From positions 1 to 39,176 of the forward strand of contig VXTR01000002.1 of the NCBI GenBank assembly GCA_009837355.1: a stretch of DNA of 39,176 bases. Reading direction: 5' to 3'. The translations under genes and the position numbers were made by a program. Below are positions 18,038 to 37,875 of this stretch, piece by piece. Below the pieces are notes generated by a model, which had not been told where the DNA came from, made no database searches, and worked only from the letters and a program-made list of their open reading frames with translations. This DNA comes from Chloroflexota bacterium. Its GTDB lineage: Bacteria; Chloroflexota; Dehalococcoidia; Lucifugimonadales; UBA3495. Position 1 is the first letter of the stretch. The number at the start of each line of letters is the position of its first letter.

Positions 18038-18069
18038 TAATCGCCCTTATTGGAGGGAGTTACAGAACC

Positions 18070-18327
18070 TCAGGGACAGACCGACCCGTCCAAGGTGGTG
18101 ATCGCCCAGTAACGAGAGGCGGTCAGGACGCAGGCGATCTCCACTACCTCCAGGAGCACAGTGTCCGAGTTCAAGCTTTCGTTGATATGCCGGCTGACTG
18201 GGTTCTCTAGTACTCGGTATCCATCAACTTCTCGCCACCAACGGGTCTGGGAACTCCCGAACGGGCCCAACCTGGCGATAGGCGGTACCATTCTCGAAGG
18301 CATGAACTCGTTATTGATTGCAGCCAC
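18070..18327 (-). CDS. Small unknown protein, last gene of the minus-strand operon
   Basis: A frame of 85 residues starts at GTG 15 bp after the DUF499 stop and ends 33 bp before the terminator. The position argues that it is translated. It reads like protein: a Trp/Arg-rich middle (SSQTRWWREVDGYRVLENPV), then a hydrophobic helix (TVLLEVVEIACVLTASRYWA). No clear ribosome-binding site is seen and I do not know the family. It may be a small accessory subunit of the defence operon, or only the decayed end of a longer gene. Confidence 0.5.
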   Translation of the reverse strand: MAAINNEFMPSRMVPPIARLGPFGSSQTRWWREVDGYRVLENPVSRHINESLNSDTVLLEVVEIACVLTASRYWAITTLDGSVCP

Positions 18328-18342
18328 GAATTGGCTACATGG

Positions 18343-21663: not shown

Positions 21664-21674
21664 GATGACCTCAC

Positions 21675-22283
21675 TTAAGTTGCTTGAACGGCGGACGCTA
21701 GCCGCTGGGCCAGGGCGTCAAAGTCCTCCGGGCATTTCTGGCGGATGGCGGGAACCCGTCGGGCTGCTTCTTCCCCCAAAACTTGCCAAATCCTTCGAGA
21801 TTCCTCTGAATTCAGGCCCCGTCGACTGTATTCGGTAGCGTTAACCAAGCCGCGCCGGACGGCCAGCGGCTCGAAGTACTGTTCCTTAACCTGGACTTCC
21901 GCCCTTACGTCCGTCCACCGCCATTCGCGGGGAAGAGTCAATCCGGCCAGCGCCCAGGTCTCAACTTCTTCCCAAGCGTTTTCGGCGAAAAAAACGCACC
22001 TGCTCTGGAACTCCGCTTCAATCCGGTCAAGCCTCTGCCGCCGTCCCAAAGCGCCGTCGCGGTCAACGCACAGTATGAAGATGTCAGTCATCCCCTGTTG
22101 GTCGTTGACAATTGCCGCCAGTTTGTCGGTTTTGACAGCTTCGTCAATGCCACCGAGCAATGGATCTTGACAGACTACGACCTGCGGGTTGGGCGCTCCG
22201 AGGCGCCTGAAGAGCCGGGAAATTAGCGGTTTAAGGATGTATTGGTCCTTACGGAAGTCCTCGGGAATGACCAATATGTTCAT
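21675..22283 (-). CDS. TOPRIM-like protein, partner of the ATPase upstream
   Basis: A protein of 202 residues, overlapping the upstream ATPase gene by four bases (ATGA). Strand 1 gives NILVIPED with Glu8, and strand 3 gives IFILCVDRDG with Asp74 and Asp76. Together these form the acidic triad of TOPRIM nucleases (E, then DxD). The rest is helical and charged, with no membrane or HTH part. Two-gene pairs of RecF/OLD-like ATPase plus TOPRIM protein act in abortive defence: RloA-RloB, AbiL and PARIS (where the TOPRIM protein is a nuclease released on triggering), and OLD or Gabija when fused. The family number is not certain (DUF4276/RloB-like is my best guess). Confidence 0.75.
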   Translation of the reverse strand: MNILVIPEDFRKDQYILKPLISRLFRRLGAPNPQVVVCQDPLLGGIDEAVKTDKLAAIVNDQQGMTDIFILCVDRDGALGRRQRLDRIEAEFQSRCVFFAENAWEEVETWALAGLTLPREWRWTDVRAEVQVKEQYFEPLAVRRGLVNATEYSRRGLNSEESRRIWQVLGEEAARRVPAIRQKCPEDFDALAQRLASAVQAT

Positions 22284-23560
22284 TCGAGCACCCCCTGCTC
22301 CCAGTCATCCTCATCGTCATCCAAGTGGTCGGAGTCAGAGTCCCCTTCGGAGAACTTCATCGCAGTTTCAAACCAACCACTGGTGAGAAGCCGTTCCAAG
22401 CCCTTGGCTTCGCGCAACTCCCGAAGATTGAATAGCCCTGCTATCGGACGAATGACGCTGTCGGCCCAGTACTGGTCGCGGTAAACGACAGAGGTGTTCT
22501 CGAAAGCCGTATCGCTCATCCATGCCAGCAGGGCCGGCGAGTGAGTAGTAGTGACGACCTGGATATTACCCTCAGCGGTTTGCTGCTCAATAAGGTCGAG
22601 GAGCAGCCACAGCCGGTTGGGATGGATGCCGTTGTCTATCTCCTCGAAGAAGTAGAGGCCGCCTTCGTTGGGACCGAGCAGCGCCGCCAAGATGCCCAGG
22701 AAGCGCAGGGTGCCGTCGGAGGCGCTGTAGGCCGATACCTTGCGTCCGTTGCGTTCCACGATGTGGAGATGCACCCGCCCGCTGGGGTCGCGGGGAAAGT
22801 CGAAGTCCTTAACGTCCATGGGAGTGAGTTCCTGCAGCCAGGACATCAGATTGCGCCCGCGCTGGGGGTCGGCGCAGATTGCTTCTAGGACTGATGGCAA
22901 GTTCTCGCCGCTGTCGCCCAGCATGGATGCGCCGGTTATGGATGGTTCCCGCATTCGTTCTGGCATAAATTCCAAGTATCTGATCTTGCCGAGGACGTTG
23001 TTGAATTCTCGCCTGGCGTTTAGGTTTCGCCACGAATATGTAGTCGAAAGTTGGGCCAGGGCCGGTTGAGAGCGACTAAGCTCAATCCAGCTTTTGCCGG
23101 TGTCGTCTGCGGGCAGTTTGAGGAGGGAATCGTGGGATTCAACAGTCTTATAGACCAACTCCAAGCCGACCCTTAGTTCCTCGTCCATCAGGCGGAACCC
23201 GTCGGGGCTGTCCGGCGCGAACGCGACCTTGATTGAATATGATGTCTTTGTCTCCACCGAGTCCAGTTCGACCCCAAGGGAGAACCAGAATGGCACACCG
23301 GGAGAGGCCGGGCACATTCGAAGTATTTCGTTGGGTGCCCCTCTGATTCCCGCCCATTCCCTTTGTCCACCTGGCCCGTACCTCCCGCCGAGAATCTCCG
23401 CCAGCGTGTAGCCCCGGCCAATGCCGTGGAGGAAGCGGAAAGCGTCGCGGATGTTGCTCTTGCCACTGGCGTTGGCGCCCACGATCACGGTGAAGGGGCC
23501 TACCTTCAGCGTCTCGTCGGCGAAGTTCTTGAAATTGACCATGCGAACTGACGTAATCAT
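22280..23560 (-). CDS. RecF/OLD-like AAA ATPase
   Basis: A protein of 426 residues that starts in a four-base overlap with the methyltransferase stop. The N-terminus ITSVRMVNFKNFADETLKVG, followed by Walker A GANASGKS (28-35), is the pattern of AAA15/OLD/RecF-type ATPases. The C-terminal lobe has a Walker B/signature stretch GGLYFFEEIDNGIHPNRL (about residue 300) and the H-loop VTTTHSP (about 338). These proteins dimerise on ATP around an SMC-like head. The overlap and the adjoining TOPRIM gene make a pair with it. In PARIS the ATPase detects phage anti-restriction proteins and sets free the TOPRIM nuclease; by analogy this pair could watch over the methylase, which is inference. Confidence 0.9.
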   Translation of the reverse strand: MITSVRMVNFKNFADETLKVGPFTVIVGANASGKSNIRDAFRFLHGIGRGYTLAEILGGRYGPGGQREWAGIRGAPNEILRMCPASPGVPFWFSLGVELDSVETKTSYSIKVAFAPDSPDGFRLMDEELRVGLELVYKTVESHDSLLKLPADDTGKSWIELSRSQPALAQLSTTYSWRNLNARREFNNVLGKIRYLEFMPERMREPSITGASMLGDSGENLPSVLEAICADPQRGRNLMSWLQELTPMDVKDFDFPRDPSGRVHLHIVERNGRKVSAYSASDGTLRFLGILAALLGPNEGGLYFFEEIDNGIHPNRLWLLLDLIEQQTAEGNIQVVTTTHSPALLAWMSDTAFENTSVVYRDQYWADSVIRPIAGLFNLRELREAKGLERLLTSGWFETAMKFSEGDSDSDHLDDDEDDWEQGVLE

Positions 23561-26500
23561 GGCGCTTCTCCCAACCGGGGTTGCCGATAGCGCGGCGCGC
23601 GCACGTCGCCGTGGGCCGCGGCGTGGTTGCTTAGGGCCTCCAGGACGGCGCGTTCGTCGGAGCCTGCCGGGGCTAGTTCGATGAGGGCCTGCAACAGTTG
23701 GTGGAAGAGGGCGTTGCGCTGGAGTCCCCGGCTGTCCAAATATTCATTCACCCTGGCCTGGTCGCCGGCCCGCCACAGTTGCATCAGCTTGTGCGCCTGG
23801 TCAATGAGGGGCGCCGGCCGCCCGCCCGGCCCTTCCAACCCCAGGCTGCGTGCCTGGCGGCGCTGCCAGGGCTTGAGCTTGACCTTGGCACCGCTCCCAC
23901 CTTCGCCGTTGTCATCACCTTCATCATCCTCCAGGGCATGGTCGTCAAGGCTGTCGGCAGCCGCGCGGTTCTTGGACTGTAGCAGGAGGTCATATTGGTT
24001 CGCCAACGCCGAGTCAGAGAGATTGCAGGAAAGAGCATAGAGGATGCAGCCGCCTACTGGCGCATCTTCTATCCCAAAGTCGTTGCGGTGCAGCAGGTAG
24101 TAAGTGGTCACGTCGTCCAAACCGGTGACGGCCTCCTCGCCGCCTCGGGTCAGTACCCGGCCCACCACAAAGTCCACTACCATCCGCCGGACCTCACGCA
24201 GGAACTCGGAGACGGCCATAATCTCGCCGGGAGCGTTGGCCTTACGGACCGCCGGGTATTTGCTGAAAGCTTCGAGAGCGGGACCGGTGGCGGCCCAAAC
24301 GAAGTCCGGGCCTCGGATCCCTGCATCCCAGAAGTCCCGCAGCTTCTGGGTGATATTATCCCGCATCTCATTGAGGACGTCGTTATCCCACCCTGGCCGG
24401 ACAGGTGGCCGCTTCCTACAGACCAACCAGACAGATGAAGCTAGGGCTGATGACCCGATTGCCCGGTTGCGGTTGCCCATTTCCGTCTGGATGGGCCAGG
24501 AACCGTCAACGACGAATCCGGACCGGATCAGCGCGGCAACCAACGTCTCCCAAGCGTCGGGCTGCTTGTTGGCAAACACCACGACGAGCCTTCCATCGGA
24601 CCGCAACGCGGAGTGACAAGCCTGAAACGCCCGCGCCATGCCGTCCTCGTAGCTTTGTTTCGACAGTTCCTTATCGCCCCCGAACCTGCTGGCGTCGTCA
24701 ATCAGCTCACCGTCGCCGGTATCATGGTTCCACTTGGGGCCCAGCGGATTCTGAAAGGCGTTGTCCATATCGTGGGAAAAACCGTGGGTGGTCCGCCGGA
24801 GCCATACGTGGAAAAAGTCCATACAATCGGAATATGGGATGGCGTCATAGTAGGGTGGGTCGGTGACTATGGCATCGTACTGCCCTGCGGATTTGACGGC
24901 GCCTTCGCTTTGTACGCTGGTCGCACACGCTGATTGAGCGGATTGAAGGGCGTGGCCGCTAAAGCGAGAAACCCATTCAAGGGCGCCGAGAAAGTTGCCG
25001 GATGTGTCCGACAGTGGGTTTACTTCGGCATAATCCCAGACGATAGGAAGCGCAAAACGTGCAAAGGTGTTTCTAATTATCTCGCCGGTGTTGTGCCAAG
25101 AACAAATAGCACTGGAATAGTCGGCCATACGATCGTTTGTCAGTACAAGATAGGCGGCCAGTGCTTCCCGCCATTCCCCCGGGTAGTCAGCAAGTTCTCT
25201 AGGTAATTGGCGCAACGCTTCTACAAACACGCCCAACGCCAGCAATTGCCGGTTGGTAAACAGCTTCCGCCAGGTGTCGAACCCGTAGCCGTCAACCGAA
25301 AAGGCGCGAGACGCCCCAACACCTGCCTTGGGAGTAGGCTCCTCGGGCAACCCGAAGGGGATGTCATCATAGAGGGCTTGCAACCGCTCCTCGCCCACCA
25401 GCGCGGCATTAATTTCGTGGTCCGTTGGCAAGCGGTATTCCTTTCCTTTTGGGCCGTCTACCACCACGGTGGTCATCACCGCGCCCAAGCGCCCGGCCTG
25501 CCCTTCCAGGCGAATATCGCCCATGGTCATAATGACGCCACAGCAAGGGCAGGTTGCGCCGGTGCGGGACATGGTGCCGACCCCGATGCGCTTATCATGC
25601 TCCCGCCGCTGCGCCGTGTTGCCGCCGTTTTGAGGCACATTGGGCTGCACGCCGAAGATTACCCCGGTCCGGTCTGCGTCCGGCTCCATAGTCAGCAGAA
25701 CGCGCTTGGTGTCCTTCTTGCACAACCAACGAGTTTTAAGCAGTGGCAGCGTAGCCCGGCATTGCTTGCAGGTCACAGTCCGGGCCCACAGGTAGGCCAC
25801 GGTGGGTTTAGCTACCCAACGAAGGTTGTCGGAGTCCTTCAGGTAAACGGCGTTGAACTCCTCGTTGAGGGGGTCAAGCTGGGCGACGCCGTTTTCATCC
25901 AGGTCGAGGAGACACAAGGAGCGCTGCTCTTCTTCTCCGGTAGGAGTCAGATGTTGATACTCGGCATAGGTAGGATAATAGGAAGCCAACTCCTTGCGGG
26001 CGCGGGCCAACACCCACCGACCCCAGGCGCGAACGTGCCATGCCAAGTCCGCCTGGTCTAAGGAATCGTCCTGGGACAGGTCGCCCAGTTGTACTCCCTC
26101 GCCCTTGCCGTGGCCCATTCGTTCCAAGAAGATCCGCAGCCTGGCCCCCTTGAAGCCCTTGGCTTTCAAGAAGGCTTCCATGAACTCCCGGTCAGCCAGG
26201 GCAAACTCCGGCAGAGGGCGGGTCTGGCCCGCCAGCTTCTGCGGGTATTCCAGGGTGCATTTCAGGATGAACCAGGCCACCGGGTTGATGTCCATGGCAG
26301 TGGCTTCGCAGCCCAGGCGCATGGCCTCCAGGGGTATGGCGCCGCCGCCAGCAAACGGATCAAGCACCTTGGGGGCGCGGCCACCGTAGGCGCTGCGGAT
26401 TTCCTTGCGGAACCATTCTAGGTCCGAACCGTTCTCCCTACCCCAGTGGAGGATGCCCCCTTCGGTCTCTTCCTTCACCCTCTCGACCACCCGGCCATTG

Positions 26501-26757
26501 ACCCGCTTGCGTTCGACCTTCTCTGTAACCCGGCCCGCCATGCGCAGCAAGATGTCTCTGCGTTTGTCGGCATCGCCCGGATCCGGCAGTAGCGTGGCTA
26601 TCAGCGCAGCCCGCGACGCCGCCAGCGGTCTCCGTGCCGGCCAGATGTGCAAGGTGGAAATATGCCCATGCCGCACGTTCTTCTCATGCACGGAATCCAA
26701 TGAAACCTGTTTGAGGGGGAATGCCACTTCGATTAGGCGCTTGTCGTTCCAGTTCAT
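23557..26757 (-). CDS. DUF1156 adenine/cytosine DNA methyltransferase (anti-phage associated)
   Basis: A protein of 1066 residues. The N-terminal DUF1156 signature KRLIEVAFPLKQVSLDSVHE and HGHISTLHIWPARRPLAASR (1-50) precedes the SAM motif DPFAGGGAIPLEA (133-145). The catalytic motif TDPPYYD follows near 632-638. Between them is an insertion with cysteine pairs (CKQC near 330-335, CPCC near 400) that look zinc-binding. DPPY fits an amino-methyltransferase (N6A or N4C). In HMA/DISARM-like loci such enzymes mark host DNA so that the helicase/ATPase machinery attacks only unmarked DNA. It begins about 60 bp after the Argonaute gene, the widest gap in the operon. Confidence 0.93.
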   Translation of the reverse strand: MNWNDKRLIEVAFPLKQVSLDSVHEKNVRHGHISTLHIWPARRPLAASRAALIATLLPDPGDADKRRDILLRMAGRVTEKVERKRVNGRVVERVKEETEGGILHWGRENGSDLEWFRKEIRSAYGGRAPKVLDPFAGGGAIPLEAMRLGCEATAMDINPVAWFILKCTLEYPQKLAGQTRPLPEFALADREFMEAFLKAKGFKGARLRIFLERMGHGKGEGVQLGDLSQDDSLDQADLAWHVRAWGRWVLARARKELASYYPTYAEYQHLTPTGEEEQRSLCLLDLDENGVAQLDPLNEEFNAVYLKDSDNLRWVAKPTVAYLWARTVTCKQCRATLPLLKTRWLCKKDTKRVLLTMEPDADRTGVIFGVQPNVPQNGGNTAQRREHDKRIGVGTMSRTGATCPCCGVIMTMGDIRLEGQAGRLGAVMTTVVVDGPKGKEYRLPTDHEINAALVGEERLQALYDDIPFGLPEEPTPKAGVGASRAFSVDGYGFDTWRKLFTNRQLLALGVFVEALRQLPRELADYPGEWREALAAYLVLTNDRMADYSSAICSWHNTGEIIRNTFARFALPIVWDYAEVNPLSDTSGNFLGALEWVSRFSGHALQSAQSACATSVQSEGAVKSAGQYDAIVTDPPYYDAIPYSDCMDFFHVWLRRTTHGFSHDMDNAFQNPLGPKWNHDTGDGELIDDASRFGGDKELSKQSYEDGMARAFQACHSALRSDGRLVVVFANKQPDAWETLVAALIRSGFVVDGSWPIQTEMGNRNRAIGSSALASSVWLVCRKRPPVRPGWDNDVLNEMRDNITQKLRDFWDAGIRGPDFVWAATGPALEAFSKYPAVRKANAPGEIMAVSEFLREVRRMVVDFVVGRVLTRGGEEAVTGLDDVTTYYLLHRNDFGIEDAPVGGCILYALSCNLSDSALANQYDLLLQSKNRAAADSLDDHALEDDEGDDNGEGGSGAKVKLKPWQRRQARSLGLEGPGGRPAPLIDQAHKLMQLWRAGDQARVNEYLDSRGLQRNALFHQLLQALIELAPAGSDERAVLEALSNHAAAHGDVRAPRYRQPRLGEAP

Positions 26758-26817
26758 GGCTCAACCATATTCTTTAGCTGACAGGGTCCCCAATTCATCC
26801 TTGGTTGCGGCTAAGGA

Positions 26818-28323
26818 TCAGATATAAAACTTGAACGTGGGCCGCCGCTCGGTAACCGTAGGGTTGCTCACCAGAATCTCGCCGACTGCATCCGAGAACT
26901 TCACCGTTACCGGCTGGGAATCACCGGAGTTGCAGGCGTTGTAATTGAGTTTAGTCAGTCCCAAAATGTCGCTGGCTACCTCAACGAGGTTTGCGTCTCC
27001 GTGTTGAATGTCAATTTGTAATGGAGCTGGCGTTTCCCATCCGTCATAGGTCCCGAGTCGCTGTTTGAAACCCGAAGCAAACAAGTATCCTTGTGTCGGA
27101 GAATGTTGCCACAAAGTTCCCCTTAGAACTGGCCAGCTCTTATCAGGCCGATAGAGACGTGGACCTTCCCGCCTAGGGCGAACACGGATTCCCACGACCT
27201 TTAGACCGTTGGGTGCCGCCGAGCGGTACCCCTCAAACTCTTCCTCGCTGATGCTGGATCGGGAGTGCAGAAAGACTTCAGTCAATTCTTTGCCGTGCAA
27301 ACGCTCGTAGGTTTCGAGAGCGCCCTTGAGCAAATCGTGGGCAGCTTGGCCAGTGAGTCGGAATTGCCATTCTTCGGGAGAATACCACGGTCCATAGTTG
27401 CCCAAAAACACTATACCGTCTCCATCGTCTAGGAACATCTGAGCAGCGCAGGCCGCTGTATTCGTGCCACTTTGATCATTGACACGCCGGAACGCAAGAC
27501 CGATGTAGCACACGCCACTTCTGGCTGTAGCCAGCCTCCACGGCTTGCCGCCTCCCTTATAATACAACGTGCTCCCAAGATTCCACATTCGATTGGACAT
27601 AGGGGTCAGAGGACGTAAGCCGAATTGGTTGTCGTCATTAAGCCTCAGTGTCGATTCGCGTATGATTTGAATCGGCGCATCGTAAGCCATGGCACGAGCC
27701 TTGATTTGCCTGCGAAAATCAAGAGAAAAGTCGTACTGTTCGCGGTCGTATGCTGAGAACATCTCAAGCTGCCCTCGCCTCCGTGACTTGATGCGGTCCC
27801 TAGAAACCACTTCCCCTGTGCGATCAGCCACACGAGACCTAATGCGGCAGGTATCGTGGACCTGATCAGGAACCACGCACACGATAACTCCCATGCGCTC
27901 ATCTAGTTTCTGGAAGTCTTGAAAGGGCGAGAGATATCGATTTACAACTGAATATACCCTTTCGTAAGCATCGTGTCGACGAGCCTCTTCACTCAGCGAA
28001 TTGGCATCCAGCTCGTGCGTCCAGACTGGGGTGGCTCGCCACTCGCTGGCAAAGGCCACTTGAAACCCAGGGTAGGGAGGCCAGAGTTGCTGACGGCCGT
28101 TTGGCGCGTCGGTCCAAGCGGCGGACATAGCTTGAGACCACTCCAAAAACAAGTCCAAACCCTTGGCCGTAGCGACAACGCCGTAAGACAGAGCCGCAGG
28201 ATGGCCGGGCGAGTCTGCGTCGCATGGACCGAACAGCGACAGACCATCACGCGGATCTGGGATATGCTGCCCATATCTGAATTCCAGAGCTGGCTCATCA
28301 AAAGTTTTCAGGTCATAGGACAT
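26818..28323 (-). CDS. Short prokaryotic Argonaute (MID-PIWI), SPARTA subunit
   Basis: The ATG at 28323 gives 501 residues; a GTG four codons earlier (28335) is an alternative, so the gene starts 5-17 bp after TIR-APAZ. The length fits a short pAgo, which has only MID and PIWI domains. The PIWI start reads GVCYIGLAFRR, where catalytic Argonautes have Asp in place of that Ala, so slicer activity is not expected, as in other short pAgos. It also has LRPLTPMSNRMWNLGSTLYY before it and FLHSRSSISEEEFEG as a later strand/helix. In SPARTA, guide-loaded pAgo bound to invader nucleic acid activates the partner TIR to destroy NAD and abort infection. The pair is complete here. Confidence 0.9.
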   Translation of the reverse strand: MSYDLKTFDEPALEFRYGQHIPDPRDGLSLFGPCDADSPGHPAALSYGVVATAKGLDLFLEWSQAMSAAWTDAPNGRQQLWPPYPGFQVAFASEWRATPVWTHELDANSLSEEARRHDAYERVYSVVNRYLSPFQDFQKLDERMGVIVCVVPDQVHDTCRIRSRVADRTGEVVSRDRIKSRRRGQLEMFSAYDREQYDFSLDFRRQIKARAMAYDAPIQIIRESTLRLNDDNQFGLRPLTPMSNRMWNLGSTLYYKGGGKPWRLATARSGVCYIGLAFRRVNDQSGTNTAACAAQMFLDDGDGIVFLGNYGPWYSPEEWQFRLTGQAAHDLLKGALETYERLHGKELTEVFLHSRSSISEEEFEGYRSAAPNGLKVVGIRVRPRREGPRLYRPDKSWPVLRGTLWQHSPTQGYLFASGFKQRLGTYDGWETPAPLQIDIQHGDANLVEVASDILGLTKLNYNACNSGDSQPVTVKFSDAVGEILVSNPTVTERRPTFKFYI

Positions 28324-28340
28324 AATGGATTTCACCCGTG

Positions 28341-29684
28341 TTACCCTTCCGCCTCGTTCAATTCTTCGCCATCTTCATGCCAAAGGGGATGGGTTTTATC
28401 TGGTATGGCCACTAGTTCATCACGGATTCGAATGGGAGCGTTGAGAGTAATTGGCCATGCGTTGATGATCAATTGCTGGTCCCCATGAGGCCCAACACGA
28501 ATCTTCATGTCCTCATCGGCAAGCAGTTGAGCAATACCGAGCGTTCGCGCGGACCATTCTTTGTTGAACCAAAATCTACAGAGGTGCTTACGCCGTGACG
28601 TTGTCTTTTGCTCACTTAGCGGAACTCCCTTAGTATCCGTAAAGTAGATGCGATTTCGGAGAAATAAGACGAACGGGTCAGTATGGTCTTGAAGCACCGA
28701 AAACGATGGGCTCAAGTGGTATCGGTAAACCTCACCGCCATCCTTGGTAGGAAACTTGCGTTCTCCAAGTCCCAAGAACCGCCGGCTCGTTCCGTCAGAC
28801 AATCTGAAGGAGACAGTATTGTTTCGGAGCAGGCCATGTGGTAAATACCACTGCCTTTTGTCTGCCCGGTAGACCATTCCTTTGGATTTGAGCGCTTGGT
28901 CCATGCAGCCATGCAATAGGCTGACTATCAGATCCCGTGTCTTGATTCCGTGAATTGATGAAGACTTTCGCCAGTCGATTAGATCGACGAGTTGAAAACC
29001 GTAACGGTCGCTCAACTCAGCTGGAGGATCGTGAAAAGCGAGAAATTGAGAGGTGGAGGGCATTCTCGATGCCCATGCCCTCCGGACTGCCCACGCGTCT
29101 TTTGCCGAGAGGTCAGATATTGGTCGATACTGTCGGATAAATCGAGGCACCAACTCAACCTCGAAGCAGTTGCTGATTAGTTGTTCAGGTTCATTGTGCA
29201 CAGCCGCCCCTTGGACCATGGAGCGAACCGCCAGAAGAGGTCCGTTTGGTAATGTCCTAGGTGCGTTGATAGATTCCAGTTTGGCCAAAAGCGAAGCCAA
29301 GCCTTCATGCCAACTTGGGGTAAATGGGATGTAAGTGATTGGCTGATAATTCCACGTAATTTCGTCGGGTGTAAGGCCTTCCACATTCAGGGGGATTACG
29401 AAGTCATTGATTCCGAGTTTGTTCCCTATCGCCCTGCCCTTCAGCCATTCTCCCTGTGGATTAGGCTTCTGCATCGACGCTCGGGAAAGAAGCGCAATCA
29501 TGCGAAAGGTTCGTTCATCAATGGCCTTGTCAATGTCATTGGGCCAGTTCTCCCCGCCCAGCAGCTTCAGGCGGTCATACCATACGGCGTATCCCTCTGC
29601 GGCAAGGCGACGCGCGAGCCAATCGGATAAGAACGATTGCTCGGTCGCGTAACTGATGAAGAGATGGTCACGTTTTGGCGTCAT
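28341..29684 (-). CDS. TIR-APAZ protein, SPARTA effector subunit
   Basis: The ATG at 29684 is preferred (447 residues); TTG at 29705, closer to GAGGAA, is possible. The N-terminal TIR domain (about 1-140) begins KRDHLFISYATEQSFLSDWL and contains YDRLKLLGGENWPNDIDKAI, where a Glu in the loop/helix is expected to catalyse NAD cleavage. The rest is the APAZ region (about 150-447), the PAZ/N-like part that binds the Argonaute in a heterodimer (SRMPSTSQFLAFHDPPAELS and FWFNKEWSARTLGIAQLLAD among its strands). The partner lies directly downstream. In SPARTA, guide-target binding makes heterodimers assemble into NADase tetramers. Embedding between helicase and methylase genes is unusual. Confidence 0.92.
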   Translation of the reverse strand: MTPKRDHLFISYATEQSFLSDWLARRLAAEGYAVWYDRLKLLGGENWPNDIDKAIDERTFRMIALLSRASMQKPNPQGEWLKGRAIGNKLGINDFVIPLNVEGLTPDEITWNYQPITYIPFTPSWHEGLASLLAKLESINAPRTLPNGPLLAVRSMVQGAAVHNEPEQLISNCFEVELVPRFIRQYRPISDLSAKDAWAVRRAWASRMPSTSQFLAFHDPPAELSDRYGFQLVDLIDWRKSSSIHGIKTRDLIVSLLHGCMDQALKSKGMVYRADKRQWYLPHGLLRNNTVSFRLSDGTSRRFLGLGERKFPTKDGGEVYRYHLSPSFSVLQDHTDPFVLFLRNRIYFTDTKGVPLSEQKTTSRRKHLCRFWFNKEWSARTLGIAQLLADEDMKIRVGPHGDQQLIINAWPITLNAPIRIRDELVAIPDKTHPLWHEDGEELNEAEG

Positions 29685-29717
29685 ATCGTTGGCTCGACTG
29701 ACCAAAGTTCCTCTAGA

Positions 29718-32700
29718 TCACTCTGCGAAATCTAGAAGCTGTGATTCGCTTAAAGTGTACGCTCTGGATTCCTGTGTCTTGGCCAGCAACTTACCGAAGG
29801 GGTCTCGCACCCGCACCAGTCGGGGGTGGGGTGTGGCGCAGTCGAATACTACGTAGAGCCAGTATGTGTCGCGATTGTTGCACGCGCTAGCCCATTCGTT
29901 ATCTTGCAAATGTACTCCACCTCTCCCTCGGCGCCCTTTGACCTCAATTGCCAGCTTTTCCGAGGATCTGCCCGTAGCCCGCGGGCGCCTGGACAGTAGG
30001 TCGAATCCGGGCCAATTGTTCAACCCTGCGCGGCGGGCGAGTTCCGGGCGCGAAACGTCCGTAACTTGGGCGTTGACACTCTCCTCGTATGCGGTCGCTA
30101 CCCGGACAGCAATAGCCTCCACGTCGGCCTCGTACTGCTCCGTCTCCTCCGGATCCTGGGATGGAACAACGAGGGCATGGATGAGGAATTCTACTTCGCC
30201 CGGCCTTACGTTATCGGCTTCAGCCCGAATCCCATCTAGACGATTAGCGCGGGCTGCCGATAACCCCCGCTGGCGCTGTCTTACCCGGTCAAGCTCTCCG
30301 GCCGCCCGGTGGTCTCCGGTCTGAACCCTCTCGTTAAGGCGGATGCGGGCCGCGGCCAATTCAGCCGCCTGGTAATCGAAGCCGCGCGCCACGAACCCCA
30401 AGCGTTCATCTAGGCTACTGATGAGCCGTTGCCGCTGGGTCTGCGCCATACTGCCGGCCACATCTTGGGCGAACCCCTGGGCTTCCTGCATCAAGGTCCG
30501 GGCGGTATGAGCCAAAGGCTCGGAGCCGGGGGAGAAATCGACAGCGCCCTTGAGGAGAAGCAAGTGTTCGACCGGCGCCTCGTTCACAGAGCCGTCCCCA
30601 TTCTGGCGCAGGCCGACCAGCCTTGATTCAAGCAACCGGGACTCGGAGGCGGCTACCTCGGGCGAATGGGCAAGAGAAGGCGTTTCTGAGGCTGTCGGGC
30701 GCTCCAACGGCCCCACGACCGAGACCAGGGCTATATGAAACAGGTAAGGCTGATTGGCGTATGGGTCAATGAAGACCGAGCCTCTTAATCCTTCGTTCCC
30801 GAAACGTCCGACCACTGAGGCAGAGAGTCTGTCGAATACCTCTTCCCCCGGGTACATCCACACAGCGTCGGAGGCCTGTACTGGGCGGTAGACCGTCAGC
30901 CGGCCACGCTCCCCTTGCTGACGGGATTCTAGGGCGGGCAGCAACGGGTCCAAAGCCCTGCGTTCCGTAGGAACGAGCCGGAAGGTCGAGTCCAGGTCGC
31001 CATCAATCCTCAAGTCGAGAAGTGAAACAGACTTCTCTACGAAGCTGCGGACGTATCCGGGAAGCAACCGGCGGTACACTTCTTGGTCCACCGAATCTCT
31101 GACCCTGTCGAGTTCCCTGACCACATCTCCGCCCGGCCCGAACAGGCTACGCTCCCTCTCCTCAATGGCACGAACTTGGCCTTCAGTAAGGGTACCTTCC
31201 AACCGAGCAACTGCCTGGCTGGACTCCCCTTCGGTTAAGGTCTGTTCGATGTAGTCTTTGATGGACACGCCCTCGAAAAGGCGACCAATGACATCAAAGA
31301 CTTTCCCGGACTGGAGTTGACGGCGAATGGCCTCAAGCTTATCCAGCAACGTCTTGAGGACTAGCCCCTCACGGGTGGCTCCGGCGACTAGGTTTACTAT
31401 CACCACCGGGTTGTGAGCCTGCCCGTAGCGGTGGATGCGGCCCATTCTCTGTTCGAGACGGGCTGGGTTCCAGGGTATGTCAAAGTTGACCATTAGCCAG
31501 CAAAACTGGAGATTGATCCCCTCGCCCGCAGCATCGGTGGCCACCAGATATCTTGCCCCCTGTTCCGCTTCCGGCCTGCGAAAGAACTCAACCTGCCGTT
31601 CCCTTTCCTGGTAGGGCATCCCCCCGTGTATCGTGGCAATCTGGCCAGTGAATCCGAGGCCCTCAAGTCTATGGACCAAGAAATCGGCGGTGTCACGGTG
31701 CTCCGTGAATATGATGAACTTTTCGCCGGAATACTCAGGCTCCTCCAGCACCTCCCGTAATTTCTCAAACTTGGACTCTTCACGACTGTCGAAGAGACTC
31801 CGCGCCTTGTCCAGCAGGCTGTCCACTTTGATACGCTCTGCTTCCAGTTCAGCCAGGCTATGCGCTACCACGCCACCCAGTACTTGTTCCTCAAACTCCT
31901 CCAGGCGGTCGGAATCGTCTTCGCCCGCAGTCTGTTCCTCTGCTGTGGTTGTTTCAAATGCGTCATCAGTGCCGTGAAGCCGCTGTTGCTGGCGGGAGAG
32001 TTCCTCTTCGGGTAACCTTCCATCCCGAATACGCTCGATCATGTCCTCAAGTTTTTCGACGCGGCGCTGGAAAGACCGCATCAGCGCATAGGTGGAGCTG
32101 GCCAGTCGCCGCTGGAACACGCTCATGGCCAGTCTGGCCGCTGACCGATTTAACACGCGGGCCCGGTTGTAGTAACTTCGGATGTAGTCCGTCGTGGCGT
32201 CGTACAGTTCCTGCTCGCTTCCCGCACCTTGAGTCAATGCGTAACTCAGGGTATCGCATTGCCTTGTGGGGAAAAGTGCCGAACCGTCGAAATGGACAAG
32301 CTCCTCTTTGGTACGACGGATGAAGTGCCGTCGCCTTGCCTCGGTAGGGAACTGTTCGAATGCTTCATAGGTAGGCAGCGTCTCTGGTAGCAGCAGTCGC
32401 CACAGGTAGTAATAGGGAAAGTCTTTTCCCATGTGCGGTGTGGCAGTAAGCAAGAGGAGATGTTGCGCCGACCAAGGAAGCACCCACTGTGCACCGTCGG
32501 CGCCCGCTCCTGCTATGGCTTCCGCCAGCCGGTAACGCTCAGTTCTACGGACCCTGAAGTCGGGCAGGCGGTCAGCCGAGAGCTTGTGGGCTTCATCGAA
32601 CACGACCAAATCGTATGGCTCGGTTGCCGTATCGGCGAGATGAGCAAACATACGTTCATCGGCTAGGGTGTCCACGCTGACGATGACAAGATCACTCTCG

Positions 32701-33344
32701 GGCGTCTCGAACGGGTTGGTGGTTCTTGCATCTGAGCCGGTGACCACCCGGAACCGCAAGCGAAACAAGGTACGCATTTCCCGTTCCCAGTTGCCCACCA
32801 AGCCAGCTGGGGGAACGATGAGGACGCGGCGGATGAGACGCCGGGCCAGCATCTCACGGACATATAGACCGGTCATGATTGTCTTGCCCGCACCAGCATC
32901 GTCGGCAAGGAGGAACCGTAAGGGGGACTGTTGAAGCATGTGCTCATAAACAGCCAACCTCTGGTGAGGCAAGGGATCGATGAAGGAAGTTTCGCTGGCA
33001 AAAGCAGGATTGAAGAGGTGCCCGTAGGCGAGCCGGTGGGCCTCGGCCACGGCTGAAACTACCTCCGGGGACGCAGAAAAATCTAGGCCGGGGTACGTGC
33101 CAACGTAGGGAATGGAGGTTGGTTCTTCGATGCTGTCTTCCCGCAACGAGAGTTCCAGATCAACGATCCGCTGCCATGCCAAGTTGTTAGGTCGGGACTG
33201 ACCGTTCTCCCAGCGATTCACGGATGCGTAGGAAACGCCGATTAGACTGGCAAGCTGCGTTTGAGTCAGACCGGCAATGCCCCTGACTTCCTTGACACGT
33301 TGGCCATAGTCGGGTGGAACGGAATTTGGAGTAACGGACGGCAT
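29718..33344 (-). CDS. XRE-HTH / SNF2 helicase / DUF3883 fusion protein
   Basis: First gene of the minus-strand operon, 1208 residues. Residues 12-60 are an XRE helix-turn-helix (KEVRGIAGLTQTQLASLIGV, then SYASVNRWENGQ). A SNF2/RapA-type motor follows, with Walker A DDAGAGKT (148-155), DEAH at 250-253 and LLLLTATPHMGK. Its second RecA lobe has IIFTEHRDTADFL and QRMGRIHRYGQ (about 630-640). A long charged coiled region comes next. The C-terminus matches DUF3883: WPGFDLLSRR, then KLAIEVKGRRG and DNEWASACNNRDTYWLYVVF (about 1110-1155), in which E-V-K recalls a PD-(D/E)XK core. The motor fits the helicase of HMA/DISARM-like systems. The fused HTH could repress its own operon or load the motor at a set site. 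Confidence 0.93.
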   Translation of the reverse strand: MPSVTPNSVPPDYGQRVKEVRGIAGLTQTQLASLIGVSYASVNRWENGQSRPNNLAWQRIVDLELSLREDSIEEPTSIPYVGTYPGLDFSASPEVVSAVAEAHRLAYGHLFNPAFASETSFIDPLPHQRLAVYEHMLQQSPLRFLLADDAGAGKTIMTGLYVREMLARRLIRRVLIVPPAGLVGNWEREMRTLFRLRFRVVTGSDARTTNPFETPESDLVIVSVDTLADERMFAHLADTATEPYDLVVFDEAHKLSADRLPDFRVRRTERYRLAEAIAGAGADGAQWVLPWSAQHLLLLTATPHMGKDFPYYYLWRLLLPETLPTYEAFEQFPTEARRRHFIRRTKEELVHFDGSALFPTRQCDTLSYALTQGAGSEQELYDATTDYIRSYYNRARVLNRSAARLAMSVFQRRLASSTYALMRSFQRRVEKLEDMIERIRDGRLPEEELSRQQQRLHGTDDAFETTTAEEQTAGEDDSDRLEEFEEQVLGGVVAHSLAELEAERIKVDSLLDKARSLFDSREESKFEKLREVLEEPEYSGEKFIIFTEHRDTADFLVHRLEGLGFTGQIATIHGGMPYQERERQVEFFRRPEAEQGARYLVATDAAGEGINLQFCWLMVNFDIPWNPARLEQRMGRIHRYGQAHNPVVIVNLVAGATREGLVLKTLLDKLEAIRRQLQSGKVFDVIGRLFEGVSIKDYIEQTLTEGESSQAVARLEGTLTEGQVRAIEERERSLFGPGGDVVRELDRVRDSVDQEVYRRLLPGYVRSFVEKSVSLLDLRIDGDLDSTFRLVPTERRALDPLLPALESRQQGERGRLTVYRPVQASDAVWMYPGEEVFDRLSASVVGRFGNEGLRGSVFIDPYANQPYLFHIALVSVVGPLERPTASETPSLAHSPEVAASESRLLESRLVGLRQNGDGSVNEAPVEHLLLLKGAVDFSPGSEPLAHTARTLMQEAQGFAQDVAGSMAQTQRQRLISSLDERLGFVARGFDYQAAELAAARIRLNERVQTGDHRAAGELDRVRQRQRGLSAARANRLDGIRAEADNVRPGEVEFLIHALVVPSQDPEETEQYEADVEAIAVRVATAYEESVNAQVTDVSRPELARRAGLNNWPGFDLLSRRPRATGRSSEKLAIEVKGRRGRGGVHLQDNEWASACNNRDTYWLYVVFDCATPHPRLVRVRDPFGKLLAKTQESRAYTLSESQLLDFAE

Positions 33345-33373
33345 CGGTCAGCCCCTGCAAGTCGCTCTCCACT

Positions 33374-33402
33374 AGCATACATCTGGGTTGTGTGGTTGTC
33401 AA
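33374..33402 (-). promoter_or_regulatory. Promoter of the helicase-SPARTA-methylase operon
   Basis: On the minus strand a perfect TTGACA (33397-33402) and TATGCT (33374-33379) are 17 bp apart, 30 bp before the helicase start. The partial palindrome at 33410-33423 is directly upstream, where an autoregulatory HTH could bind. Confidence 0.65.
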
Positions 33403-33426
33403 ATGTCGTATAACATATGCTATGTC
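33403..33426. promoter_or_regulatory. Putative operator in the divergent gap
   Basis: ATAACATATGCTAT (33410-33423) is a palindrome with one mismatch pair around CATATG, and ATGTC occurs on both sides of it, 19 bp apart. It lies between the helicase promoter and the start of the CBASS pair. The XRE domain of the helicase is the obvious candidate to bind it; this is inference. Confidence 0.4.
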
Positions 33427-33469
33427 CGCCTGAATACAGGATATCCCAAAATATATTGAGCCACACCTC

Positions 33470-34501
33470 ATGGACCGACCAGAGTCACAGAACCCTCGCC
33501 GCAGGTCAGAAGGCGTCCTGACGACGCGCCGCCAGCCGGTGCAGTGGGCGGGCGACCTACCGTTCCGGATCCTGTCCCTGGACGGTGGGGGCATCAAGGG
33601 CATCTTTCCGGCGGCGGTCCTTGCTGGCCTGGAGAGGGAGCACCTGGAGGGCAGGAGTGTCGGCGACTATTTCGACCTGATTGCAGGCACTTCAACGGGC
33701 GGGATCCTTGCCCTAGGCTTGGGAGCGGGAATGACCGCCGACGAAATCCTGCGGATGTACCTGGAGGAGGGCCGACGGGTATTTCCCTCGAAGGAAAGGG
33801 GGTTAGCCGGCAGAGCCAGGAAACTATTTTTCGCCCAGTATGACCGCAACGCGTTGGACGAACTGCTGAAACAACGGCTGGGCGAGAAAACGCTAGGGGA
33901 ATCCAAGTATCGCCTGCTGATTCCATCGACGGAGGGGCGCAATGGCGAGGTCTGGGTCTTCAAGACTCCACACCACCCCGATTACAGGCTTGACGGCGAT
34001 ACGCCCATGAGTTCGGTGGCGTCGGCCACGTCCGCCGCGCCGACCTACTTCACGCCCTTCGAGCAAGGGGGTTACACCTACCTCGACGGCGGCGTGTGGG
34101 CCAACAACCCCACGATGGCAGCCCTGGTGGAGGCCCTTTCCTGCTTCGCTATACGTCGGGAAGAGGTGAGAATTCTCAGCATCGGATGCGGCGAGAACCC
34201 GTTTCAGATTACCGAAGGGCAGGCCAGGAGGTCCGGCATGGTGCACTGGCGCGGTATCATTGCTGTCGCCATGCACCTGCAGTCGGTCACGGCGGTGAAC
34301 CAGGCGGGGCTGCTGATTGGCAGAGACCGGGTGATCAGGCTCGACCGTCCCGACGGCAGAGAAACCATCGACCTGGACGACTGGGTAATGGCGAAGGACC
34401 TTCTGCCCGGGGAAGCCGGTGAGGTCGTCCGCAGCAACGCCAGCCTGCTGGTGGATACCTTTCTAACCGAGCCGGCGGCTCCCTTCACGCCGCTGGCATG
34501 A
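33470..34501 (+). CDS. capV: CBASS patatin-like phospholipase effector (CapV-type)
   Basis: A protein of 343 residues. The patatin fold is complete: oxyanion motif DGGGIKGIF at 38-46, nucleophile elbow GTSTGG with Ser75, and catalytic Asp206 in YLDGGVWANNP. A Pro/Arg-rich N-terminal leader of about 30 residues precedes it. In CBASS a cyclic nucleotide made on infection binds this effector, which then degrades membrane phospholipids and kills the cell. The CD-NTase gene follows 18 bp later, which confirms the role. The start at 33470 has only a weak ribosome-binding site. It is transcribed divergently from the helicase operon. Confidence 0.92.
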   Translation: MDRPESQNPRRRSEGVLTTRRQPVQWAGDLPFRILSLDGGGIKGIFPAAVLAGLEREHLEGRSVGDYFDLIAGTSTGGILALGLGAGMTADEILRMYLEEGRRVFPSKERGLAGRARKLFFAQYDRNALDELLKQRLGEKTLGESKYRLLIPSTEGRNGEVWVFKTPHHPDYRLDGDTPMSSVASATSAAPTYFTPFEQGGYTYLDGGVWANNPTMAALVEALSCFAIRREEVRILSIGCGENPFQITEGQARRSGMVHWRGIIAVAMHLQSVTAVNQAGLLIGRDRVIRLDRPDGRETIDLDDWVMAKDLLPGEAGEVVRSNASLLVDTFLTEPAAPFTPLA

Positions 34502-34519
34502 CCTACGGGAGACCACAGC

Positions 34520-35419
34520 ATGACCAAGAACAACCGCCCGTTCCGGGAGTTTCTCCGGTACGAGGTCAACCTGAACCAGGACCGGCTGCACCGGCTGCAA
34601 GTGAGCGTCCGGGACGTGAACCGCCACCTGAAGGGCAACCTGCCGGGCTACCAGAGAATCGACCGGCAGGGTTCCTACGGTCTGGACACCCTGGTCAAGC
34701 CGGTGAACGAGAATGACGAATACGACGCCGACATCCAAGTGGTGATAAACCCCAATCCCAACTGGAAGGCCAGGGACTACCTGAACGCGCTTTGCGAAAC
34801 TCTATCCCGGGAGTACAACTTCGCCGACAAAATTGAAATGGGCAATCGCTGCGTCACGCTGAACTACGCCGGGGACTTTCACCTCGACGTGGTTCCCCGC
34901 GTAACCAGGCAGGGAGGACACTTCATCTGCAACTGGGAGAAGGACTGCTTCGAGGAAACGGACGGCACTGGATACCGCAATTGGTTCTCGGAAAAGAGCC
35001 GGATTACAAGGGTGAACCTGAAACGGGCGGTCAGGTTGCTGAAGTACGTCAGGGACCGCCAGCACAACTACGTCGCCAAGTCCATTCTGCTGACCACCCT
35101 GGCTGGGAATGCCATCAATTCTTCCGACCGTGGCACGGAAGCGGTGCGGACGGTGGCGAACACCTTGACGACGGTGTTGACCAGGATGGACGGCTACCTG
35201 CAACGGCATCCAATAATGCCCGAAATCAAGAACCCCGCTATGTTGTCAGAGGATTTCAACCGGCACTGGAACCAGGACAGGTACGACTATTTCAGGGAGA
35301 GAGTTCATTCCCACGCCCAAATTGCTCAGCAAGCCCTGGCCTCGCCGTCCATCGAAGACTCCATAAGATTATGGCGGCGGCTGCTCGGCAACAACTTCGG
35401 GAGAGGCAGGATCGGGTAG
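34520..35419 (+). CDS. CBASS cGAS/DncV-like nucleotidyltransferase (CD-NTase)
   Basis: A protein of 299 residues; GGGAGA stands before the start. The nucleotidyltransferase core is complete: the G-S helix turn IDRQGSYGLDTLV (GS at 51-52), the metal pair YDADIQVV (Asp69, Asp71), and a third Asp123 in FHLDVVPR. A helical C-terminal domain ends in a basic tail. Such enzymes make cyclic di- or trinucleotides when phage is sensed and activate the patatin encoded just upstream. No Cap2/Cap3 or HORMA/TRIP13 genes are near, so this is the minimal two-gene (type I) form. The CD-NTase clade cannot be told by eye. Confidence 0.94.
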   Translation: MTKNNRPFREFLRYEVNLNQDRLHRLQVSVRDVNRHLKGNLPGYQRIDRQGSYGLDTLVKPVNENDEYDADIQVVINPNPNWKARDYLNALCETLSREYNFADKIEMGNRCVTLNYAGDFHLDVVPRVTRQGGHFICNWEKDCFEETDGTGYRNWFSEKSRITRVNLKRAVRLLKYVRDRQHNYVAKSILLTTLAGNAINSSDRGTEAVRTVANTLTTVLTRMDGYLQRHPIMPEIKNPAMLSEDFNRHWNQDRYDYFRERVHSHAQIAQQALASPSIEDSIRLWRRLLGNNFGRGRIG

Positions 35420-35673
35420 CTCCGACCGGGACTTTGGTGATGAACACTCCCGTGTTCTGAGGCCGCGAAAGGTTTGCGCTACGAAGCTAACGCGCCAATC
35501 GCCGGATATCGAGCCCAGGCAAGGCCATATAATTGGAAAGTCGGAGGCCGCTGCCGCTCAGCAACAGCCTCCCAATGCACATCGATCTGACACCCCCTCT
35601 TTGACCGGCCCAACAGTACCCCTCCGCGCTTGTGTCCGGTAGGCAGAAGGCTTCCAGCTCGTCCGCCGTTGCG
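35420..35673. other. Gap between convergent genes
   Basis: The plus-strand CBASS pair and the minus-strand triple-XRE gene end towards each other here. I see no convincing hairpin terminator or gene. Confidence 0.4.
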
Positions 35674-36690
35674 CTAAAGGCCTTGCGACGCCGGTTTCAG
35701 TAGGGCGTAGGAGCCAGGCTCCCGCACCAAGTGGTTGACGAACACCCGGCCGTGGCCGTCGTAGCCGGTGGTGTAGGCGTACTCTACCTGGGCGCCCCAA
35801 GGCACCCGACCGCCGACGCGCATGGTGCCGTCCCCGACCTTGCCACCGCTGCCCGGCCCGCCGGCCCCGCGTATCACCATGCCCTGGCGCTCACCCTTCT
35901 TCCAGGCCAGCACCTTCACCTCCGCCGGCATCACCCGTTCCGCCGGCGACGGCGCGAACAGCACCCCGTGCAGCCGCGTCAGCACGTCCCCCGACGGGGT
36001 GCGCCGGCCGGACATGATGCCGGAGAGGAAACCCTTGCTGATGCCGGCCCGCCGGGCCACCTCGTTCTGGCTGATGCCGTGGGCGTCCATGCGCTCCCAC
36101 AAAGCGTGGGGGTCCACGACGGAGCGCTTTGCGGGTTTCACTTTCATGGGACCGCCCAGGGCCGACTCCAGCCGGGCCTGGACCGCCGGGCTCATCCGGT
36201 TGCGGCCCCGGGACACGTCGGTCAGGTGCCTGGAGGATATCCCCACCCGCTGGGCCAGTTGGTTGATGCTCAGGCCCAGCTCCCGGGCTCGCTCTCTTAC
36301 GTAGGTGCTCTCGCTGCGGATGACGTCGATGCGGCGGTAGACGACGCCCTGGCCGGGCACGTATCCCAGCACGGCCCTGACCTTCTCCTGCATGGCCGGG
36401 GTCCAGGGCCGTCTTCCGGTGGAGAACTCGGAGAGGTAGCGGTTGGAGATGCCCATCCGCTGGGCCAGTTGCTTCATGGTGAGGCCGCTCTTGCGGGCGG
36501 CGGCGCGGAGTTCGGTCTCAGGCTTGCCGTTCGCGGTAGCGGGTTGGTTGTTACCGGTAAGGGTTGCGTTGGCGCTGTCATTGCCGTTGCCGTTGGCGGG
36601 TTGGGCCGACGCGCTGGTTGTAGCGTTGGCGACGTCGGTAGTGTTGCCGGCGGTGGGTTGGATCGTTGGGTTGGTGGTAGCGGTGGACAT
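35674..36690 (-). CDS. Protein with three XRE helix-turn-helix domains
   Basis: A protein of 338 residues, with GGAGG eight bases before the ATG. A low-complexity Thr/Asn/Ala-rich N-terminal leader (about 1-55) precedes three XRE domains in tandem: one near 58-105 (MKQLAQRMGISNRYLSEFST), one near 135-180 (INQLAQRVGISSRHLTDVSR), and one near 200-245 (QNEVARRAGISKGFLSGIMS). The C-terminal 90 residues are beta-rich and Gly-rich (GAQVEYAYTTGYDGHGRVFV). Three HTHs in one chain would recognise a long, repeated site. The role is probably regulation of the element; no family name is known to me. A hairpin-rich leader lies upstream. Confidence 0.88.
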   Translation of the reverse strand: MSTATTNPTIQPTAGNTTDVANATTSASAQPANGNGNDSANATLTGNNQPATANGKPETELRAAARKSGLTMKQLAQRMGISNRYLSEFSTGRRPWTPAMQEKVRAVLGYVPGQGVVYRRIDVIRSESTYVRERARELGLSINQLAQRVGISSRHLTDVSRGRNRMSPAVQARLESALGGPMKVKPAKRSVVDPHALWERMDAHGISQNEVARRAGISKGFLSGIMSGRRTPSGDVLTRLHGVLFAPSPAERVMPAEVKVLAWKKGERQGMVIRGAGGPGSGGKVGDGTMRVGGRVPWGAQVEYAYTTGYDGHGRVFVNHLVREPGSYALLKPASQGL

Positions 36691-36713
36691 GTTGAAGCCT
36701 CCGTGAAATGCAA

Positions 36714-36750
36714 AAACGGGGCCGGCCCGTGGAGAGGGCCGGCCCCGTTT
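36714..36750 (-). terminator. Terminator/attenuator in the leader of the triple-XRE gene
   Basis: A perfect 15-bp stem (AAACGGGGCCGGCCC at 36714-36728 with its complement at 36736-36750) closes a seven-base loop and, on the minus strand, runs into GTTTTTG. It lies only 24 bp upstream of the triple-XRE start codon, so it could act as an attenuator or as the end of an upstream transcript. Confidence 0.7.
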
Positions 36751-36783
36751 GGCGTTGGGATGGGTTGTGGGTAGATGTCAGTG

Positions 36784-36821
36784 GCGGGTCACGCCGTGGT
36801 GATGGCTACGGCGTGACCCGC
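36784..36821 (-). promoter_or_regulatory. Second leader hairpin
   Basis: GCGGGTCACGCCGT (36784-36797) and ACGGCGTGACCCGC (36808-36821) form a perfect 14-bp stem with a ten-base loop. It has no T-tract. It stands between the tiny reading frame at 36827-36841 and the terminator at 36714-36750, as expected for a structured leader. Confidence 0.5.
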
Positions 36822-36826
36822 GAAGT

Positions 36827-36841
36827 TCAGGTTGCGGACAT
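36827..36841 (-). other. Four-codon minigene with a strong ribosome-binding site
   Basis: ATG TCC GCA ACC TGA follows a perfect AGGAGG at six bases' distance. A peptide of four residues (MSAT) just before two hairpins may be a leader peptide for attenuation. It may also be the start of a small protein truncated by a frameshift (an adjoining frame reads NLNFAGHAVAITTA). Confidence 0.3.
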
Positions 36842-37875
36842 GGGTTGCCTCCTGGAGTTGTCGTGGTGGTGGGAGTTGCGGTAGCCGCCGGGGGCTGACG
36901 CCGGGAACCGGCGGCGTGATGACGCTCCGGGCGTTGCGTTGTCGCGGGCGTTGACCGGCTGGCAGCCCGGCGCGGGCACACGGCAAACGCGGCGAGCGCC
37001 GAGCGGACAGTCGTCGCCCCAGGACGGGCCTTAGCCCGGCGCGGGGGCAAGAGAATGGGGAAGGGGAAGAAAAAGCGCGGTCCCGCCTCGGGCCGATGCC
37101 GTAGAGGGGCATGGGCGGCCGGGGAACCGCGAAGAGGCGCGTGGCCGTCCCGTGCGTTGCACCAGGGGCGGAGAAGGCCAGCGAGAGAGGGGCGCAGCCG
37201 GGCGGGGATGTAACGCGCTTCAGCGCGGAGGCCGGAGCTGGCTAACGCTATGAGTGAGGATAGGCAGGGCTACGCGGTCAGCGCAGCAGTGTGAGCACCC
37301 GGTTTGGCAACCACGCCCAGCCGGAGCGTTATAGACCTGCGGGGCCGCTATGCCTGGGACAGCAGCCACGCCGCAGACATGAGGAAGCGACCGGATGGCG
37401 ATGCCCGTTCCAGCCGCAGCGTGAGGGGGGTGAGCGCAACGTCTAGTGCGCTGGGCGAGTCAGACCGCAGGGTTCGGGCCCTGGGCTGCCGTGTCGGTTC
37501 CGGCGTTCACCTCCCGGACGCTGTCGGCGATGCTGACGACGGGTGCCAGCCTGGTGTGGTGCACCGCATTGACGTGGTCGCCGGAGGAGCAGGGCTCGAC
37601 CCCGGTTCCGCATCACGCCGCGGGCGGGCGCTTATCCCAGGTAGTCCGCCGCCGGGAGAGCAGGGCTCGATCCCTTGGCAACAAACCGGGTCGGGGATGG
37701 ACCCTCCAGTTTTCTGGGCCGGAAACACTGGAAAAAGCCAGACAACGCAGTCAATTATTCACCCCCGTCCCCGTCCTGGGAACCCCTAAACCTCCTCTCT
37801 TGCACCCTCCCGCGCCAATCGTTTACCGCCGTCCCGCAGAATTCGAATGGCCGTTCCGGTGCCGTCTCCGGCGCC
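36842..37875. other. Long GC-rich stretch without a convincing gene
   Basis: Open frames here are in competing phases, rich in Arg/Pro/Ser, and lack ribosome-binding sites, so I call none. A pair of similar strings (GAGCAGGGCTCGA at 37587-37599 and 37658-37670, within a wider match of about 23 bases) lies 71 bp apart. The region may hold a structured RNA, an origin or an att site. I cannot support any of these from sequence alone. Confidence 0.4.
37587..37670. repeat. Imperfect direct repeat pair, 71 bp period
   Basis: GCCGGAGGAGCAGGGCTCGA and GCCGGGAGAGCAGGGCTCGA start 71 bp apart and share an exact 13-base core. The core resembles a tRNA T-arm superficially, but no cloverleaf can be drawn around it. 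Confidence 0.4.

Follow-up and report, generated by a model that had tools for sequence, protein, structure and literature searches.

An XRE helix-turn-helix domain in the defence helicase-nuclease HmaA and a conserved candidate operator at its promoter

The control of BREX-like and other costly defence operons is, to our knowledge, poorly known. A 39,176-nucleotide stretch of contig VXTR01000002.1 from a Chloroflexota bacterium (the window) raises this question within a single gene: hmaA (29718-33344, minus strand) encodes a helix-turn-helix (HTH) domain, a SNF2 helicase motor and a DUF3883 domain, and a palindrome lies in front of its start codon. Does the defence enzyme itself regulate the operon that encodes it? 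The computational comparison of relatives presented here indicates that HmaA very probably binds the palindrome at its own promoter through its XRE domain and controls its own operon.

Domain composition of HmaA and its operon

The product of hmaA is a protein of 1208 residues in a single intact frame, assigned from the open reading frame, Pfam and PADLOC (HmaA, PDLC00659, 4e-162, the match covering profile positions from 69 onwards only). An earlier note made from the DNA letters had described the gene as a three-part fusion, and Pfam agrees, with HTH_3, SNF2-rel_dom/Helicase_C and NOV_C all above their cut-offs in the same frame. The XRE domain (residues ~12-66; 33147-33311, minus strand), delimited by HTH_3, dN/dS and AlphaFold2 helices, carries the recognition helix SYASVNRW, at which conservation within the domain peaks; HTH_3 matches residues 18-60 with 36.1 bits (cut-off 23; 6.5e-9). 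It is followed by a predicted flexible linker (residues ~70-83; 33096-33137, minus strand) with pLDDT <50 and low conservation, and in the AlphaFold2 model the HTH is tethered through this low-confidence, probably disordered segment. Next come the SNF2/SF2 motor (residues ~88-690; 31275-33083, minus strand), recognized by SNF2-rel_dom, Helicase_C and the PADLOC HmaA profile, and a RapA-like middle region (residues ~744-1064; 30153-31115, minus strand; VIA-align Z 11.4 to RapA 695-968).

The start codon was scrutinized, the earlier note having allowed for a better-supported start past the HTH. ATG 33344 is the sole ATG, GTG or TTG up to codon 42, and it is upheld by a Shine-Dalgarno-like AGGGG (33352-33356, minus strand, 7 nt 5' of the ATG) and a TTGACA-17-TATGCT promoter in front of it. 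With no candidate before codon 42 and the HTH under purifying selection, a start downstream of the HTH is ruled out. Compared with those of L008, the closest relative, the HTH codons of the window gene have a dN of 0.13 and a dS of 1.96 (dN/dS ~0.07), so the HTH is both translated and selected; residues 1-11 show no purifying selection in the same comparison (dN 0.71, dS 0.67).

The C-terminal NOV_C/DUF3883 domain (residues 1066-1208; 29721-30149, minus strand) is predicted to be a PD-(D/E)XK nuclease by Pfam (residues 1112-1172, 47.5 bits against a cut-off of 22.1), fold match and invariant motifs. The model of residues 690-1208 (pLDDT 86) matches archaeal Hjc Holliday-junction resolvases over 108 residues at 2.4 Å (VIA-align Z 10.9) as well as a chain of SPARDA complexes that bears a nuclease (Z 10.6), and a sequence search with the C-terminal profile against the PDB gave chance matches only. 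The GFD (D1115) and EVKG (E1134, K1136) motifs are invariant across a 68-sequence alignment, and the E-V-K strand, residues 1134-1136, falls within the PD-(D/E)XK fold in the structure-based check. Fold and motif thus support a nuclease assignment of predicted activity. The earlier note had offered a nuclease or a modification reader; the former stands, and the latter is disfavoured because the domain has a nuclease fold and its catalytic D/E/K residues are invariant. This part of HmaA was already known, since DUF3883 fused to SNF2 and adjoining DUF499 had in 2013 been named as a novel restriction-endonuclease domain (PMC3710099); the helicase-DUF3883 fusion is therefore not new.

HmaA is the first of seven tightly packed minus-strand genes, with a largest gap of ~60 bp and two junctions that overlap by 4 bp. 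Downstream of it lie the TIR-APAZ subunit of a SPARTA pair (28341-29705; PADLOC 1.5e-66, TIR_2, SPARTA structures 4e-17) and a short prokaryotic Argonaute with MID-PIWI (26818-28335; PADLOC pAgo_I 6e-165, full-length match to SPARTA pAgo structures at 9e-92), which adjoin each other (26818-29705) between hmaA and hmaB. They are followed by hmaB, a DUF1156 DNA methyltransferase (23557-26757; PADLOC HmaB 1.1e-120, Pfam DUF1156), an OLD/AbiEii-type ABC ATPase (22280-23560; AAA_21 5e-32), its 202-residue partner with no family match (21675-22283), which is paired with the ATPase in relatives too, and hmaC, a DUF499 AAA+ ATPase (18343-21663; PADLOC HmaC 9.8e-71), all on the minus strand. The ATPase-partner pair recurs between hmaB and hmaC in five relatives (L022, L024, L038, L071 and L079).

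The Hma system of PADLOC has been re-described as the Type-1 DUF499-centred BREX-related (BR) system (PMC8565338, PMC12839542). As in that system, a SNF2/DEAD helicase, a DUF1156 methyltransferase and a DUF499 ATPase share one operon, and the helicase has a SNF2 core, a RapA-like middle and a C-terminal PD-(D/E)XK domain, the last recognized here by fold and by residues D1115, E1134 and K1136. Judged by sequence, the window protein is HmaA, the helicase-nuclease of a Hma or Type-1 BREX-related operon. BR helicases begin with a TUDOR domain in Types 1 and 3 and with an HKD nuclease in Type 2 (PMC12839542). The Pfam scan of HmaA found no HKD nuclease, and PglZ, the mark of Type-3 BR and BREX, does not occur among the operon proteins in Pfam or PADLOC searches. 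Unlike the Type-1 BR system, the locus carries an XRE domain instead of TUDOR together with a conserved candidate operator, and a SPARTA pair separates hmaA from hmaB. Neither XRE nor an operator nor autoregulation is mentioned in the text of PMC12839542. The two inserted genes each match SPARTA members already known, but SPARTA is usually a free-standing pair, whereas here it lies within a Hma operon downstream of an operator-bearing promoter.

A conserved palindrome and its association with the XRE domain

The palindrome noted earlier at 33410-33423 is confirmed there and extends to 33407-33426 (core 33409-33424), where CGTATAACATATGCTATGTC forms a candidate operator and a putative site for the XRE domain, as judged from a position weight matrix (PWM), a genome search and relatives. 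In the upstream regions of XRE-bearing genes it can be recognized by eye. Palindromic expectation-maximization on 67 upstream regions yielded the consensus TATA(G/A)CANNTG(C/T)TATA, with a log-likelihood gain of 440 against 39-43 for three shuffled sets. By a weight matrix scored mostly on its own training loci, the consensus palindrome is found within 300 bp upstream of 58 of 69 XRE-HmaA genes, compared with 11 above threshold among 4,340 other 300-bp windows taken from these loci. Scores of 17-23 were also obtained for five loci that had effectively played no part in training: L073 and L078 were absent from the set, and in L014, L038 and L084 the site had been truncated or lay beyond the training stretch. 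The loci that combine XRE-HmaA with the operator span more than a dozen bacterial phyla. A conserved operator in front of XRE-HmaA genes appears new.

The window copy scores 22.2 and no other site reaches 7 in the window; across the whole 3.25-Mb genome it is the single site at up to one mismatch. These counts bear on the idea that XRE serves to target the enzyme, in which case it would guide the helicase-nuclease to specific sites in invading DNA and the promoter site would be a by-product. The fusion of the domain to a DNA motor and a nuclease, with no separate regulator gene, would suit such a role. We nevertheless regard it as highly improbable: relatives retain the preferred site at the promoter of the gene itself, in many cases with a constant spacing to the -35 element, the host genome has no second copy, and general defence would call for a site commoner in phage DNA than one of 16 bp would be.

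The presence of the XRE domain and of the operator are closely associated. Among 124 tabulated loci, 53 of those with XRE have the site and 12 do not, against 2 with and 57 without among those lacking XRE (Fisher 1e-20, ancestry ignored). TUDOR-type genes have no operator save for one weak match, and the operator is nearly always gone where XRE has been lost; L143 is an exception without XRE, with a weak score of 9.7. In L026 (9780-10010; L092 is identical) a natural deletion has kept the operator and removed the -35 element, the start codon and most of the HTH, leaving the helicase frame intact. Both archaeal members (L054, L056) lack XRE and operator alike, which would fit a domain that acts on bacterial promoters. 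One of the 12 XRE-bearing loci without a clear site is L013, where operator, promoter and a broken XRE copy (7987-8193) stand 1.9 kb upstream of an intact XRE-hmaA; this arrangement suggests a duplication plus an insertion at the promoter.

The identity of the recognition helix follows the same trend. The operator accompanies the usual helix, S(F/Y)xx(V/I/L)NR, in 54 of 58 XRE-bearing loci, compared with 4 of 11, all weak, for other helices (p 8e-5, ancestry ignored). A different helix, SPITISR, is carried by L059 and may prefer TTTAGCA-type sites. A group of close relatives shows the trend on a small scale: where the helix is retained (L040, L050) the site is too, and where the helix has changed (L047, L048, L051) the site is missing. 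Tree-based independent pairs point in the same direction with almost no contradictions, although the 4 usable pairs stay below significance. A look for alternative palindromes at 15 loci with an altered helix or without the site gave no pattern, with long perfect ones in L086 and L062 only. Taken across phyla, the occurrence of the palindrome before XRE-HmaA genes and its near absence where XRE is missing strongly support the earlier proposal that HmaA would bind at this palindrome.

Promoter geometry and the sign of control

The hmaA operon promoter, TTGACA-17-TATGCT (33374-33402, minus strand), matches 10 of 12 consensus positions, for which 0.2 occurrences are expected per 1-kb region, and it is among the two best promoter matches within 18000-36900. 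The palindrome centre lies 14 nt upstream of the -35 element in the window, which is the commonest spacing in relatives. In 23 of the 58 loci, that of the window among them, a good -35 element begins 10-17 nt downstream of the palindrome centre with a peak at 14, compared with 5.6% of random spans. In about nine other loci the -35 element stands 16-26 nt upstream of the centre, which puts the right half of the palindrome at or near the -10 element. Between -35 and -10 (33380-33396 in the window), many relatives also carry an element of the form ~CACGCGA; the window version, ACCACACAACC, is degenerate.

These two geometries make autoregulation by negative feedback likelier than activation. As judged from the sequences, the nine loci with the -35 element upstream of the palindrome favour repression, and the palindrome upstream of -35, the largest promoter class, would allow either repression or activation. 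In the mechanism that we propose, two HmaA molecules would bind TATA(G/A)CANNTG(C/T)TATA at the operon promoter through their XRE domains, and bound HmaA would set operon expression by feedback. We infer that the feedback is more likely negative than positive; it would then hold down the amounts of the toxic nuclease and of the abortive-infection cargo (SPARTA in the window).

The opposite sign can be built on the same operator. XRE-HmaA could act as an autoactivator or a two-stage switch of the kind known from C proteins, recruiting RNA polymerase when bound upstream of -35 and, in the two-stage version, repressing at high level through a weaker site in the spacer. The near-fixed spacing just 5' of -35 in 23 of 58 loci and the conserved spacer element would both be accommodated, and C proteins, which regulate restriction-modification operons, belong to the XRE family (PMC3978073) and have operators near -35; the HmaA HTH is a weak match to one of them, C.AhdI. 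C proteins are small and separate, whereas the domain here lies within the effector. Activation is rather unlikely in our judgement, given the nine loci whose palindrome reaches the -10 element and a spacer element that forms no clear operator half-site.

The best precedent for autoregulation of HmaA comes, by analogy, from M.SsoII, a restriction-modification methyltransferase whose N-terminal region of ~70 residues binds an inverted-repeat site at its own promoter and competes with RNA polymerase, resulting in negative feedback (PMC3978073). In both cases a defence enzyme is joined by a flexible linker to an N-terminal HTH, own-promoter binding in HmaA being suggested by comparison of relatives. 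M.SsoII is a C5 methyltransferase of a Type II restriction-modification system, whereas the fusion partner here is the SNF2 helicase-nuclease of a BREX-related system, with no C5 methyltransferase; HmaA may thus work like M.SsoII-type autoregulators, though it is no member of that family. The earlier note had gone further, with engagement of phage DNA removing the repressor and inducing the operon. HmaA would then be sensor, effector and switch at once: idle HmaA would repress, loading on foreign DNA would vacate the operator, and infection would induce the operon with its abortive-infection cargo. Release of this kind would parallel the M.SsoII precedent, and we consider the full scheme possible but doubtful. 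Under the feedback reading as such, regulator and effector appear to be one protein, which has a sequence-specific candidate operator across more than a dozen phyla, and the operator motif offers a simple genomic marker for locating such loci.

The XRE-bearing clade and its cargo genes

The three-part fusion for which the earlier note suggested a search characterizes a large clade: among the 80 relatives nearest in genome_contigs, XRE is present in frame in 68, a figure that is not the XRE frequency among all HmaA proteins because these relatives, many of them from metagenome bins, were picked by similarity to the window protein. Most other HmaA proteins of the window's phylum have a TUDOR-like N-terminus. 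In a FastTree tree of 129 helicase cores, 65 XRE-bearing proteins cluster with 17 that lack XRE or have a degraded one, and 46 TUDOR-type proteins stand apart (support 98-100). TUDOR-like N-termini are confined to this other clade and to L142, the sister of the XRE-bearing group. The simplest history suggested by the sequences is one replacement of TUDOR by XRE followed by several losses, and XRE in place of the usual TUDOR across a large HmaA clade appears new. No separate intact XRE gene turned up upstream in the fusion-less relatives; broken remnants are seen in L013 and L026 only. The cultivated strains Moorella stamsii (L031) and Desulfofundulus thermobenzoicus (L028) encode close relatives. 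A Chloroflexota group (L136-L141) has an apparently decayed XRE domain and no operator.

The position of XRE where TUDOR would be (PMC12839542), ahead of a RapA-like middle region, raises the alternative that the N-terminal domain chiefly autoinhibits or docks the ATPase, in the manner of TUDOR or the RapA N-terminus, with DNA binding secondary. We hold this to be improbable: the linker is predicted at very low confidence, as for a flexible tether, conservation centres on the recognition helix and tracks the operator, and the helicase is intact in relatives that lost XRE.

The gap between hmaA and hmaB ranges from 23 bp to 8 kb in relatives, and the genes found there match OLD-type ATPases, AbiJ, AbiEii, Schlafen, CBASS (Cap15, SMODS), SIR2, GmrSD and TIR. 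Lying downstream of the XRE-bearing gene, these cargo genes may share its control, and one fused switch may govern many effectors, since the abortive-infection genes in this slot vary. A related SPARTA pair occupies the same slot in L009, and L033 and L039 contain pAgo-like sequence. Auxiliary nucleases and OLD modules near BREX and BR systems have been catalogued (PMC12839542), in a text that makes no mention of PIWI or Argonaute.

On the other side of the candidate operator, a CBASS pair of patatin phospholipase and CD-NTase (33470-35419; Pfam, PADLOC) is transcribed divergently from hmaA. The two share a 125-bp intergenic gap in which the operator lies ~44 bp from the CBASS start codon, and it could affect both the hmaA and the CBASS operons. 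Farther along, 35674-36690 encodes a 338-residue protein in which three distinct segments resemble XRE domains (HigA-, TrbA- and HipB-type matches).
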